Positions 621 through 4,121 of a stretch of 64,000 nt of DNA are shown here, in pieces. The stretch is from Acidobacteriota bacterium (lineage in GTDB: Bacteria > Acidobacteriota > Blastocatellia > Pyrinomonadales > Pyrinomonadaceae): positions 62,001 to 126,000 of the forward strand of contig JAOAPY010000013.1 in assembly GCA_025463135.1 (NCBI GenBank), written 5' to 3'. Positions within the stretch are counted from its first letter, which is position 1, and each line of letters opens with the position of its first letter. The notes under the pieces are model-generated. The model worked only from the letters and a program-made list of their open reading frames with translations. It was not told where the DNA came from and did no database searches. The position numbers and the translations under genes are program-made.

Positions 621-707
621 AGAGCCACTTGCAAAACTCGGAACGGACCTCGTGACGCCACGGGACCAGCCCGTGGCATCACTAAACCGAGTTTTGCAAG
701 TGGCTCT
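621..707. repeat. Nested palindromic element with perfect 21-bp arms
   Basis: The arms at 621-641 and 687-707 are perfectly complementary, and an inner hairpin (gccacgg near 657-663 with ccgtggc near 671-677) is nested in the loop. The inner GCCACGGG...CCCGTGGC core resembles the short palindrome at 52587-52607. The right arm ends one base before the 12-bp inverted repeat that brackets the transposase module, so this element may have been the insertion target. Confidence 0.7.
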
Positions 708-753
708 TTGGCCTAATTTGAAATCCACAGCTTGAATGGTTGGCATAGCATTG

Positions 754-942
754 TTACCCGCAACTTTGCGTGGCTTCCTTTAACGTGTGGCGAATCCAAG
801 CAGACAAGGTTTTATGCTCGCTCCGGTCAGCGCATTTCGTCATTGCCTTTAGTTCTTCGTCGTTGAAACGGACGGGAACAATCTTTCCCTTCGCATGCCC
901 CTTCGGCAGCTTTGGCCTTCCGATCTTCTTAGCTTTCGGCAT
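754..942 (-). CDS. Small ribbon-helix-helix-like DNA-binding protein of the transposase operon
   Basis: A 62-residue basic protein. After a Lys/Pro/Gly-rich N-terminus (about residues 1-24) comes a segment VPVRFNDEELKAM ... LSAWIRHTLKEA that has the strand-helix-helix pattern of ribbon-helix-helix proteins and plasmid mobilisation accessory factors (hydrophobic beta strand, then two amphipathic helices, with the S-WIR motif opening helix 2). The start at 942 overlaps the 3' end of the 97-residue gene by 14 bases, so it is the third gene of a tightly coupled operon led by the transposase. It could regulate the operon or assist transposition; neither can be shown from sequence alone. Confidence 0.68.
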   Translation of the reverse strand: MPKAKKIGRPKLPKGHAKGKIVPVRFNDEELKAMTKCADRSEHKTLSAWIRHTLKEATQSCG

Positions 943-1222
943 TGGCTTGCGCCTCCCTCACATCACTTGCTATTAATACTTGAACAGCCTTACGAGGCGT
1001 TATGGCTGGCGGTCGCTTTGGATGCTCTGGATCGTCCGTGTCGTGCGCCCAAGCGTAGAGGCGGGAGGCGGTCGGATGTTCGTGTAGATCGAACACCTCA
1101 ACCTCGCCTTCCCAAATTGTTTGTCCGTTGAAGGTCTCAACCACTGGCACGGTCTCAACATGGGTTGACTCCGTGCCGTGCAACCGACGGATCACGTCTT
1201 GTAGTTCTTCGATGTAGGTCAT
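929..1222 (-). CDS. Unrecognised 97-residue protein translationally coupled to the transposase
   Basis: I do not recognise this acidic protein. The ATG at 1222 shares an ATGA overlap with the transposase stop (1219-1221), the typical arrangement of translational coupling; an upstream GTG-type extension to 1255 is open but lies inside the transposase gene. It begins MTYIEELQDVIRRLHG, which predicts a short helix, continues with TFNGQTIWEGEVEVFDLHEHP, a beta-rich stretch, and a segment rich in Trp, His and Asp (YAWAHDTDDPEHP), and ends in a helical tail. Its position between a transposase and a ribbon-helix-helix gene suggests an accessory or cargo role in the module. Confidence 0.65.
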   Translation of the reverse strand: MTYIEELQDVIRRLHGTESTHVETVPVVETFNGQTIWEGEVEVFDLHEHPTASRLYAWAHDTDDPEHPKRPPAITPRKAVQVLIASDVREAQANAES

Positions 1223-2049
1223 GATGCCGCCTCTACTAGGTCGGCAACCGACCAATAGCTACGCTCAACGCCAGCGGCCATCGCAGGGGTGCATCGCATT
1301 GTCGCGTGACGACGAACGAAATTGTAATAAGCGAAGTGAAGCGCAACAGCCGCCTCAAAGTTTTCAATCTTTTTGCTGAATGCGTGAGTGAGGCGAGTTA
1401 AGCGGCGCATGTGCTGGCGAGTGGTCGCGTTCAATCGCTCAACGTAGCTTGTCGAGACCAAGTCCATGTTGGGGCGGCCAACAACGTGGCGCTTTTCACT
1501 GAATACGATTTCAGGCGCACTATAGCGGCGCTCTTGGTGATGCTCGCCTTTATCTGCACCGTAGTTCTTATTAATCATTCCGTAGTCAACGTCCATGCCG
1601 AAAGCGTTCTCTACCGCCTCAACGTAAGCGCGTAGACCATCGGTTGAAACCTGCGGACGATTGCGAAGGCGAGAGGCAACGTCACTAACAAAAGCGTTCG
1701 CGGTTAGGTGGTCGCGCTGGCCGACTTTGAACGCGGGAACAAGCTTTGTTTCGGCATCAATGGCGCAGACCGTCCAAACGTCGCCTTTGGTCGGATCGTC
1801 GTCAAAGGTGACGTGCTTTTGCTTCTTTCCCACGAATCTCCACAGTTCATCGAATTGCAGGAAATTGCAGGTTAAATCGCGCATTTTGGCGTCCAGCACC
1901 CTAGCGCAGCCATTGCCAACGCGAACACCTAGACGGCAGATGGTATCGCGGTGTATACCAGTCATGCGCGAGATTGAGTGCATACTCGAACCCTCAGCCA
2001 ACGCGCTGATTATTGCTATCTGTTTATCTTTCGGTAGGACGTTTGCCAT
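1219..2049 (-). CDS. DDE-type transposase, IS1-like family
   Basis: A 276-residue protein with an N-terminal helix-turn-helix (about residues 8-45, ...ISRMTGIHRDTICRLG) followed by an RNase H-like catalytic core. The likely catalytic triad is D67 (in QFDELW), D137 (in STDG) and E204 (in YVERLN), with the downstream R...TRLTHAFSKKxENF and HFAYYNFVRRH stretches that characterise the IS1-like transposases often annotated in soil bacteria. All of the expected blocks are present and the frame is intact, so it may be active. It is the first gene of a minus-strand operon with two coupled small genes, and has a good sigma-70-type promoter at 2077-2105. Family assignment is from recognition of the pattern, not a database search. 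Confidence 0.88.
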   Translation of the reverse strand: MANVLPKDKQIAIISALAEGSSMHSISRMTGIHRDTICRLGVRVGNGCARVLDAKMRDLTCNFLQFDELWRFVGKKQKHVTFDDDPTKGDVWTVCAIDAETKLVPAFKVGQRDHLTANAFVSDVASRLRNRPQVSTDGLRAYVEAVENAFGMDVDYGMINKNYGADKGEHHQERRYSAPEIVFSEKRHVVGRPNMDLVSTSYVERLNATTRQHMRRLTRLTHAFSKKIENFEAAVALHFAYYNFVRRHATMRCTPAMAAGVERSYWSVADLVEAAS

Positions 2050-2076
2050 TTGCCTTATCTCCCTGTCAACGGAAAT

Positions 2077-2105
2077 AATGTAATACAGTTTCTATTTCCT
2101 GTCAA
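2077..2105 (-). promoter_or_regulatory. Sigma-70-type promoter of the transposase operon
   Basis: On the minus strand a consensus TTGACA (2105-2100) is followed after exactly 17 bases by TACATT (2082-2077, 4 of 6 matches to the -10 consensus). A purine-rich GGGAGATAAGG then precedes the transposase ATG at 2049. A second TTGACA lies between the -10 and the ribosome binding site (about 2071-2066), giving a direct repeat of TTGACAGG around the promoter that could be an operator. Confidence 0.5.
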
Positions 2106-2215
2106 GGGTTTTTGTGTTACAACTACGCTTGTACGCGCGCACTCCGTAAACGGCAAAAACAGCAACGCAAAGCAAGATTATGGCTGCAATTATAAAAAGG
2201 AGATCGCTGGCATCT

Positions 2216-3034
2216 ATGGACGCTACAAAATGGTTTCATTTGGTCGGGCTAATCAGCGCGGTCGCCTTGGGAATAGGTTTTGTTACTGCCCTTGTAAGTG
2301 TTGGACTAAGCTGGCGAGTAAACGAAACCCAAAAGACTGAGTTGGCTCGCTTGTCACATGACAAAGACGTGCAAATCGCAAAAGCTCGAACGGACGGAGA
2401 GACGCGACTAGGCATTGAAACTGCAAAGGTCAGACAAGATGCCCAAACGAAGATCGAGATAGAAACTGCAAAGGTGAGGGCCGAAGCCGACGAAAAGATT
2501 GAGCAGGTGCGGGCCGATGCCCAAAAGGATGCAGCAACGGCCCGCGTTAGACAAGATGAAATAGCCCTAGAGTTACGTACCAGTAACAAAGAACTAGCAA
2601 GCGCCCAACGCGCCGCAGACATAGCGCGCCTAGACCTACAGAAACACTTGAACGAAGTAGCGGAACGCCAAAGATTTCGGCAATTAACACCCGTCCAGCG
2701 CGCTGGATTACTTGAACGATTAAGCGTCGCCCCTAAGGGGGCCGCGACTGTTTCGTATGTTTCTTCTAACCCAGAATCAAATAGTTTTGCCGTTGAACTA
2801 TATGGAGTGCTTAAAGAAGCTGGGTGGAGTGTTGCTTTAGGGGCCAGCCAGCATCTTGGAGAGAATCCAAAGGGACTCCTATTGTGGGAACGTGCCACGA
2901 CGCCGCGCGGAGCGGGGTTAATACAGGCGCTAACGGCTGTGGGCGTGCCTGTCCTAGCGCAACCCAATGACACGTTGTCAGTAGGGATAAACGACCTAAA
3001 CTCACTATGGTTGGTTGTTGGAGTGAAACCGTAA
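2216..3034 (+). CDS. Membrane-anchored coiled-coil protein, unknown function
   Basis: I do not recognise this 272-residue protein. The start at 2216 is chosen because AAGGAG lies about 12 bases upstream; an ATG at 2180 would add 12 residues before that site. One membrane segment (about residues 9-31, LVGLISAVALGIGFVTALVSVGL) is followed by a long charged, Ala/Glu/Lys/Gln-rich helix (about 35-160) with repeated ETAKVR/EA-type units typical of a coiled coil. The last ~110 residues form a separate globular domain. The gene is divergent from the transposase operon and lies inside the 12-bp inverted repeat, so it may be cargo of the mobile module. N-in/C-out or the reverse cannot be decided. Confidence 0.75.
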   Translation: MDATKWFHLVGLISAVALGIGFVTALVSVGLSWRVNETQKTELARLSHDKDVQIAKARTDGETRLGIETAKVRQDAQTKIEIETAKVRAEADEKIEQVRADAQKDAATARVRQDEIALELRTSNKELASAQRAADIARLDLQKHLNEVAERQRFRQLTPVQRAGLLERLSVAPKGAATVSYVSSNPESNSFAVELYGVLKEAGWSVALGASQHLGENPKGLLLWERATTPRGAGLIQALTAVGVPVLAQPNDTLSVGINDLNSLWLVVGVKP

Positions 3035-3116
3035 GACGCCCTTCGGCAAATTAGGCCACTACCGGCTCTGAAGTGGGTGCTACTCATGCGACCTGCCGTG
3101 CTATTATTCGCGACCG

Positions 3117-4121
3117 GTGCGGTCCACAATAAAATATAAACTGCTAAACGGATTGCGACGGGTCGCTATTCTGCTGCTGGTCGTCTGGACAGTCGTGTCG
3201 CTCGTCACCATCCTGATCGAGCTGGTGCCCGGCGATCCCGCGGTCGCTGTCCTGGGCGAGCAGGCAACACCCGAACAGTTTGCGCAGTTCCGCGCCAGGC
3301 ATGGCCTTGATCGTCCACCTTTCTTCTTCTCATTTCCTCGCGATGTCCAGGGCGCCAGGCACTTTACGTGGCATGGCGCCCACAACCGGTACACGGACTA
3401 TTGGACCGGCGTTTTACACGGAGACCTTGGCTCATCCTTTCGCACAGATCGACCAGTCGTGGATCTGGTATTGGAACGATATCCTGCAACCATCGAACTC
3501 GCGCTTGCGGCTCTTCTCTTCGCGGTAGCCATCGCCATCCCCTTGGGCGTGATCGCTGGCACACACAAGGGAACATTGATAGATAACACGGCATCGGTCG
3601 TGGCGTTACTCGGCATCAGCCTGCCCAGTTTCGTGATTGGACCAATGCTGGTCTATCTGTTCGCCGTCAAGCTCGGGTGGCTGGCGCCGTCGGGACGCTT
3701 CGACTGGAGCGACATAATTTTGCCGGCGTTCACGTTGGGTGCGGCGCTTTCAGCCATATTGACGCGGATGGTGCGCTCTTCAGTTATTGAAGAGATGGGC
3801 GAAGACTATGTGCGCACGGCGCGCGCGAAGGGATTGAGTGAACGAAAAGTCGTTTATAAACATGTCCTTAAGAATGGGCTGATTCCCGTGGTGACGATTC
3901 TTGGCCTGCAATTGGGCGTACTGCTGGCTGGAGCAATTATTACGGAAAAGATTTTTGGCTGGCCCGGCCTCGGGCTTTTGTTAGTCGAGGACGGAATAGC
4001 AAAGCGCGATTATCGCGTCGTGCAGGGCTGCGTATTGATCATCAGCGTGACCTACATCTTCGCGAATTCGTTAACGGATATGGTTTATCGGTGGCTCGAT
4101 CCAAGAATTCGAGTGTCCTGA
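3117..4121 (+). CDS. dppB: ABC transporter permease, DppB/OppB family
   Basis: A 334-residue inner-membrane permease of the dipeptide/oligopeptide/nickel importer type. The N-terminal signature is present (first helix, then ELVPGDPAVAVLGEQATPEQ and the RARHGLD stretch), six hydrophobic segments follow, and the cytoplasmic EAA loop reads about as DYVRTARAKGLSERKVVYKHVLKNGLIP. The chosen GTG start at 3117 gives the normal N-terminus. It pairs with the DppC-type permease 64 bases downstream. No ATP-binding or substrate-binding subunit is in the window, so the solute is unknown and the rest of the system must be encoded elsewhere. Confidence 0.92.
   Translation: MRSTIKYKLLNGLRRVAILLLVVWTVVSLVTILIELVPGDPAVAVLGEQATPEQFAQFRARHGLDRPPFFFSFPRDVQGARHFTWHGAHNRYTDYWTGVLHGDLGSSFRTDRPVVDLVLERYPATIELALAALLFAVAIAIPLGVIAGTHKGTLIDNTASVVALLGISLPSFVIGPMLVYLFAVKLGWLAPSGRFDWSDIILPAFTLGAALSAILTRMVRSSVIEEMGEDYVRTARAKGLSERKVVYKHVLKNGLIPVVTILGLQLGVLLAGAIITEKIFGWPGLGLLLVEDGIAKRDYRVVQGCVLIISVTYIFANSLTDMVYRWLDPRIRVS

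Follow-up and report, generated by a model that had tools for sequence, protein, structure and literature searches.

A probable decayed IS1-related transposon with a predicted ribbon-helix-helix repressor and a conserved accessory protein in an acidobacterial genome

Results

Layout of the locus

The window (the whole stretch of 64,000 nucleotides analysed here) belongs to a 6.48-Mb acidobacterial genome (G000) in which the element described below is present in one copy. Between ubiE, which ends at position 441, and an oligopeptide-permease gene, which starts at 3117, lie three minus-strand genes, coding for a transposase, a 97-aa protein (p97), and a 62-aa ribbon-helix-helix (RHH) protein, and a divergent plus-strand gene coding for a 284-aa protein (Table 1). 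The transposase gene overlaps the p97 gene by 4 bp (ATGA), and the p97 gene overlaps the RHH gene by 14 bp; the overlaps within this trio are kept in many related elements and may, as originally proposed, hold the three products in a fixed ratio. An exact 12-nt inverted repeat (709-720/3047-3058) encloses the four genes. Both the repeat and the overlaps had been claimed in the original prediction and are present in the sequence. A hairpin with 22-nt arms (620-641/687-708) adjoins the repeat, and a second one, with perfect 15-nt arms (AATGTAGCCCGCGGA; 489-503/564-578), is found between ubiE and the element.

Table 1 Features of the putative element in the window
Feature	Position	Strand	Basis
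Probable damaged left copy of the 8-bp target duplication (GGCTCT of GGCTCTGA)	702-707	.	Matches 3064-3069; also forms the base of the 620-708 hairpin
Terminal repeat TGGCCTAATTTG, damaged by loss of the outer GGTAG	709-720	+	Comparison with the ends of relatives
RHH protein, 62 aa, putative operon autorepressor	754-942	-	Weak Pfam/NCBIfam RHH-type matches, strand-operator covariation
p97, obligate accessory protein of the transposase clade, lacking 7 core-strand residues (HVTVLHL)	929-1222	-	
IS1-like DDE transposase, 276 aa, D67, D137, E204	1219-2049	-	PF03400, 3.4e-6
Transposase promoter: TTGACA (2105-2100), 17 nt, TACATT (2082-2077)	2077-2105	-	Similar layout in most relatives
Operator arm covering the -10 box (TGTAATACA)	2079-2087	-	Predicted
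Operator arm before the -35 box (TGTAACACA, minus strand)	2113-2121	-	Predicted
Passenger: single-pass membrane protein, long coiled coil, C-terminal alpha/beta domain	2180-3034	+	
Complete terminal repeat, 17 bp (CAAATTAGGCCACTACC when read on the plus strand)	3047-3063	-	
Target duplication, right copy (GGCTCTGA)	3064-3071	.	

An IS1-like transposase and its ends

The transposase is encoded in one frame, as in some ISfinder groups of the IS1 family, and the element contains no separate insA. Its PF03400 match is above the Pfam cut-off. The NCBIfam IS1 model gives 4.6e-17 and 62.6 bits, under its cut-off of 100, and scores far better than the IS1595 transposase model (18.4 bits, cut-off 75). 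The three putative catalytic residues (Table 1) are invariant in 75/75 relatives. Members of the IS1 family have terminal repeats beginning with GGnnnTG and target duplications of 8-9 bp; the ends of the relatives read GGTAGTG, and their duplications are mostly 8 bp and in some cases 9 bp, as in that family. The transposase is an IS1-like DDE enzyme. We found no description of the element in the open literature.

Taken alone, the 12-bp repeat lies near chance level and lacks significance: the same scan of 4.5 kb has another perfect 12-nt pair, and ~0.6 such pairs are expected by chance (estimated with 4500^2/2 position pairs and 4^12). It was accepted as real because like ends recur around ~40 unrelated copies. 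The full terminal repeat is 17 bp long (GGTAGTGTCCTAATTTG), the 12 bp noticed originally being its inner part. Acidobacteriota, Verrucomicrobiota, Proteobacteria, and viral contigs all contain related elements with these ends and 8-bp duplications, recurring at unrelated sites. In a search-biased sample of loci drawn largely from metagenome assemblies, 41/51 element candidates (neighbouring clade included) have 8-bp duplications whose two copies agree at 7 or all 8 positions; a few candidates have 9-bp ones. This recurrence upholds the earlier proposal of a mobile element: the trio and its ends were found at differing sites with target duplications, rather than as operons lacking the ends or at one fixed position inherited vertically. 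A complete element of the IS1-like p97 family, with its target duplication, was also observed inside a 94-kb viral contig (L148), a possible route between hosts.

The divergent gene as a passenger

The best structural matches of the C-terminal domain of the 284-aa protein, which has one membrane helix, are weak (Rv0431 C-terminal domain, E 0.005; soluble domain of an Rv2700 orthologue, E 0.02). Among the elements, relatives of this protein occur in L055 and L062 only, and we rejected the idea that the coiled-coil gene is a fixed part of the element. Most other elements have a different single-pass membrane protein in this position; its family accounts for 22 of the 44 passenger proteins compared, and its genes often terminate within the terminal repeat. 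Further elements carry GmrSD, P63C, or PIN/DUF433 genes. The coiled-coil gene had been proposed to be cargo, and its replacement by other genes among the elements agrees with this. The membrane protein could instead have a job in the transposon itself, such as choosing targets or keeping other elements out. Most elements do have a divergent gene that stops at the left end or within it, and the predominance of one membrane-protein family fits such a role. We nevertheless judge it unlikely, as unrelated genes substitute for the membrane protein elsewhere, as its sequence changes much more rapidly than the trio and follows the transposase only loosely (r 0.24), and as the type found in the window also has relatives in loci without GGTAGTGTCCTAATTTG-type ends nearby. 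The passenger of L065 (2938-4647) is a GmrSD-type restriction protein (HEC-06/Orf5/SspE models) and likely a defence gene. It is the one clear case of its kind, and the notion that passengers are mainly defence genes was discarded.

The RHH protein covaries with an operator at the transposase promoter

Of the 46 clade transposases (at least 52% identity), 43 have an RHH gene beside them; this gene is divergent from the transposase gene in Verrucomicrobia elements, and no recognisable copy was found in L007, L063, L066, L074, L085, and L092. Profile matches of the RHH protein are weak (DUF6290, 6e-4; NikA-like, 0.006; RelB, 0.017), and the pattern of a strand followed by two helices is clear by eye. 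The protein begins with an AT-hook-like GRP and is basic (mean pI 10.9, against 6.6 for p97).

In most elements, an inverted repeat frames the sequence TTGACA-17-TACA(G/T)T upstream of the transposase gene. One arm, TGTAnnnnA, precedes the -35 box; the other, its mirror image, covers the -10 box, and the two are 33-38 bp apart. A clear operator is absent from L065 and L069. The middle bases of the arms vary among elements, and both arms change jointly. They also follow the RHH strand. The class LRVRV/LRIRV pairs with CCCC (TGTACCCC) in 11/11 elements, VIQVRF pairs with CTAC in 3/3, and IVPVRF pairs with TGTA(A/T)TACA. For L062 and L083, in both of which the transposase start is damaged, the RHH class served to predict the operators, which were located afterwards.

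The match between strand and operator is independent of transposase phylogeny. On the transposase tree, with RHH classes set by eye, the class changed 8 times, 4 of them on well-supported branches, and the operator switched along in 4/4; the corresponding independent-pairs sign test gave p 0.125, n=4 being too few to reach significance. L042 and L044 have nearly identical transposases, and both the RHH strand and the operator are switched between them. Two further analyses are class-free on the protein side. When every RHH column was scanned, the top three were strand positions (z 13.3, 11.2, and 9.5), and with transposase distance removed, strand distance correlated with operator distance at a partial Mantel r of 0.65 (permutation floor 0.0002). 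The partial r of operator distance was 0.19 with the remainder of the RHH protein and 0.00 with the transposase.

The beta-strand of RHH proteins reads the major groove. On the basis of the covariation, the RHH protein most likely binds the operator bracketing the promoter of the operon. As the sites cover the promoter, we infer repression rather than activation, and the protein is most likely the repressor of its own operon. The original prediction had left the accessory genes as either regulators or transposition subunits; for the RHH protein, the strand-operator covariation strongly supports the regulator.

An RHH protein encoded in a transposase operon and weakly similar to NikA-like mobilisation proteins could in principle be a transposition subunit that binds the element ends, its link to the promoter being secondary. 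We give this explanation little chance, since in the LRVRV/LRIRV-class elements the covarying TGTACCCC half-sites are found exactly at the promoter and never at the ends, and since the ends are nearly constant while RHH strand and operator vary.

p97, a constant companion of the transposase

p97 is found beside 46/46 transposases of the clade. Within the phylum, it occurs in 6/297 genomes, each time beside a clade transposase, and none was found in the plasmid records searched. Its distances correlate with those of the transposase (Mantel r 0.80, against 0.62 for the RHH protein). In L007, L065, L066, and L074, p97 is encoded at the opposite end of the element and on the opposite strand; that the accessory genes are kept across differing arrangements argues for function. 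The AlphaFold2 model of p97 has an alpha-beta4-alpha topology (pLDDT 93). No significant match was obtained in Pfam, NCBIfam, PHROGs, or the sequences of solved structures, distant kinship being possible, and no convincing match of the fold in the Foldseek PDB and viral libraries or with VIA-align (best Z 4.2). From its association with the transposase, p97 is most likely a cofactor or modulator of that enzyme.

p97 is also kept without a transposase in three non-autonomous-looking pieces, which a pure transposase cofactor does not easily explain. These are stretches of viral contigs with TIR-like ends (L152, 2143-3337; L153, 1393-3517; L157, 1794-3801), at which no target duplication was seen; they are possibly non-autonomous derivatives that keep p97. 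The stretch in L157 additionally carries an RHH gene.

Two small coupled genes, one of them for a basic, DNA-binding RHH protein weakly similar to RelB, could also recall a toxin-antitoxin module that retains the element in its host. This is quite improbable for p97 and the RHH protein: p97 matches no toxin family or fold, is present in the six elements listed above as lacking a recognisable RHH gene, and correlates with the transposase better than the RHH protein, and the operator is located at the transposase promoter rather than between the p97 and RHH genes.

Related elements

In a neighbouring IS1-like clade (~40-50% transposase identity), p97 is replaced by a small basic protein with a KGG/AARW motif. 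Members of this clade (L011, L013, L018, L022, L023, L075, L077, L078, and L081) have their own ends (GGTAGTGGG...) and 8-bp duplications, and the conserved small protein, with its GGxKGG...AARW motif, stands in place of both p97 and the RHH protein. A further search of the class for more elements returned, besides the known ones, only members of this clade. Within the p97 family, an extra ~320-810 bp, usually with an ORF of ~90-180 aa, lies between the transposase and p97 genes of L004, L034, L040, L041, L042, L045, L047, L048, L050, L057, L060, and L083. A tRNA-Phe gene is predicted just inside the right end of one clade element (L085:3521-3607), and T-arm-like stretches occur upstream of the transposase gene in L007 and L074, where ARAGORN finds no tRNA.

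Insertion site and decay of the window copy

Seventeen same-family relatives keep the ubiE and permease genes side by side, separated by -4 to 639 bp (2675 bp in the window); this adjacency marks an insertion in the window genome. Subtracting the ~2355-bp element leaves ~320 bp between the two genes. Empty sites in relatives, which had been suggested as a check, were found in the form of ubiE and the permease gene without the insertion. That the trio could be a host operon, with a 12-bp repeat of the kind that chance alone is expected to give in a region of this size, is refuted because ends and target duplications recur at unrelated sites, and it also conflicts with the adjacency of the flanking genes in relatives and the complete copy in viral contig L148.

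The right end is complete and is followed by GGCTCTGA. The left end starts at 709 without the outer GGTAG, and its flank reads GGCTCT/T/TGGCC, so a few base pairs have probably been lost at the left junction. No target duplication had been noticed in the original prediction; a damaged one is likely, as seen by comparing GGCTCTGA with GGCTCT (Table 1). The seven residues missing from the window p97 are present in the nearest relative of the element among the named collections, L032 from an acidobacterial assembly, and the gap maps to the last strand of the predicted p97 fold. The window copy, one of whose ends is truncated and whose p97 has lost a core strand, is probably dead or immobile. The large palindrome does adjoin the repeat as described earlier, but its proposed role as a target was rejected: it is not repeated whole in the genome, and hairpins are not enriched at 37 other insertion sites.

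Discussion

The combination of recurring ends, a conserved gene trio, and covariation leads us to propose, with a probability of about 85%, that the locus is a decayed IS1-related transposon with an RHH repressor of its operon, p97 as a partner protein, and a membrane-protein passenger. An ancestor would have inserted between ubiE and the oppB/dppB-type permease gene, its DDE transposase recognising the 17-bp ends and leaving 8-bp duplications behind. The transposase would be the first product of a coupled operon that also encodes p97 and the RHH protein. As the covariation suggests, the RHH protein most likely binds the inverted-repeat operator and shuts the promoter, so that a newly arrived element would transpose and then silence itself. 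Joint replacement of the operator and the RHH strand would give different elements different regulatory specificities.

One could imagine that these specificities act like the immunity groups of temperate phages, allowing elements of different groups to reside in one cell without silencing each other. Two elements are present in each of three assemblies (L042/L071, L044/L053, and L045/L052), and the operator classes differ in 2/3, as immunity groups would predict, although three cases prove nothing. We put forward only tentatively the combined proposal of such immunity groups and of p97 as a new transposase partner with an alpha-beta4-alpha fold absent from solved structures. If the switching of specificity does serve immunity, transposons would share a strategy known from temperate phages. 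The elements also offer ~40 natural repressor-operator pairs with an apparent strand-to-operator code, in which R goes with GGGG, P with GTAA or GTAT, and Q often with GTAG. p97 appears as an obligate, uncharacterised partner of the transposase, and membrane-protein passengers as a recurring set.

Compared with known systems, the element is closest to IS1. It shares a DDE core with IS1-type motifs (DE.W, TDG, VERLN..RQH..RL), ends of the form GGnnnTG with 8-9 bp duplications, and a transposon-encoded repressor of the transposase promoter, the last being predicted for the window element. IS1 is controlled by the repressor InsA at an end-borne promoter (PMC12428005), whereas the window element would rely on a distinct RHH protein and an internal promoter. 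It also differs from the IS1 of E. coli (InsA/InsAB') in having a single frame with no InsA/InsB frameshift and a score under the NCBI IS1 cut-off, and its family differs in the obligate p97 and in a size of 2.2-3.7 kb with passengers. This appears to be an IS1-like lineage in which regulation has been handed to a separate RHH repressor with many natural specificity classes. Similar to the insertion sequences with passenger genes (tIS; PMC7986276), the family combines a transposase with unrelated passengers between terminal repeats; unlike them, it keeps two accessory genes in the operon of the transposase and favours one type of passenger, namely single-pass membrane proteins. Finally, like autoregulated RHH repressors such as MobC of RA3 (PMC4175270), the small RHH protein described here is predicted to repress its own operon at an inverted repeat that covers the promoter; the present family departs from them in that the operon is that of a transposase and in its many specificity classes, which switch jointly with the operator.
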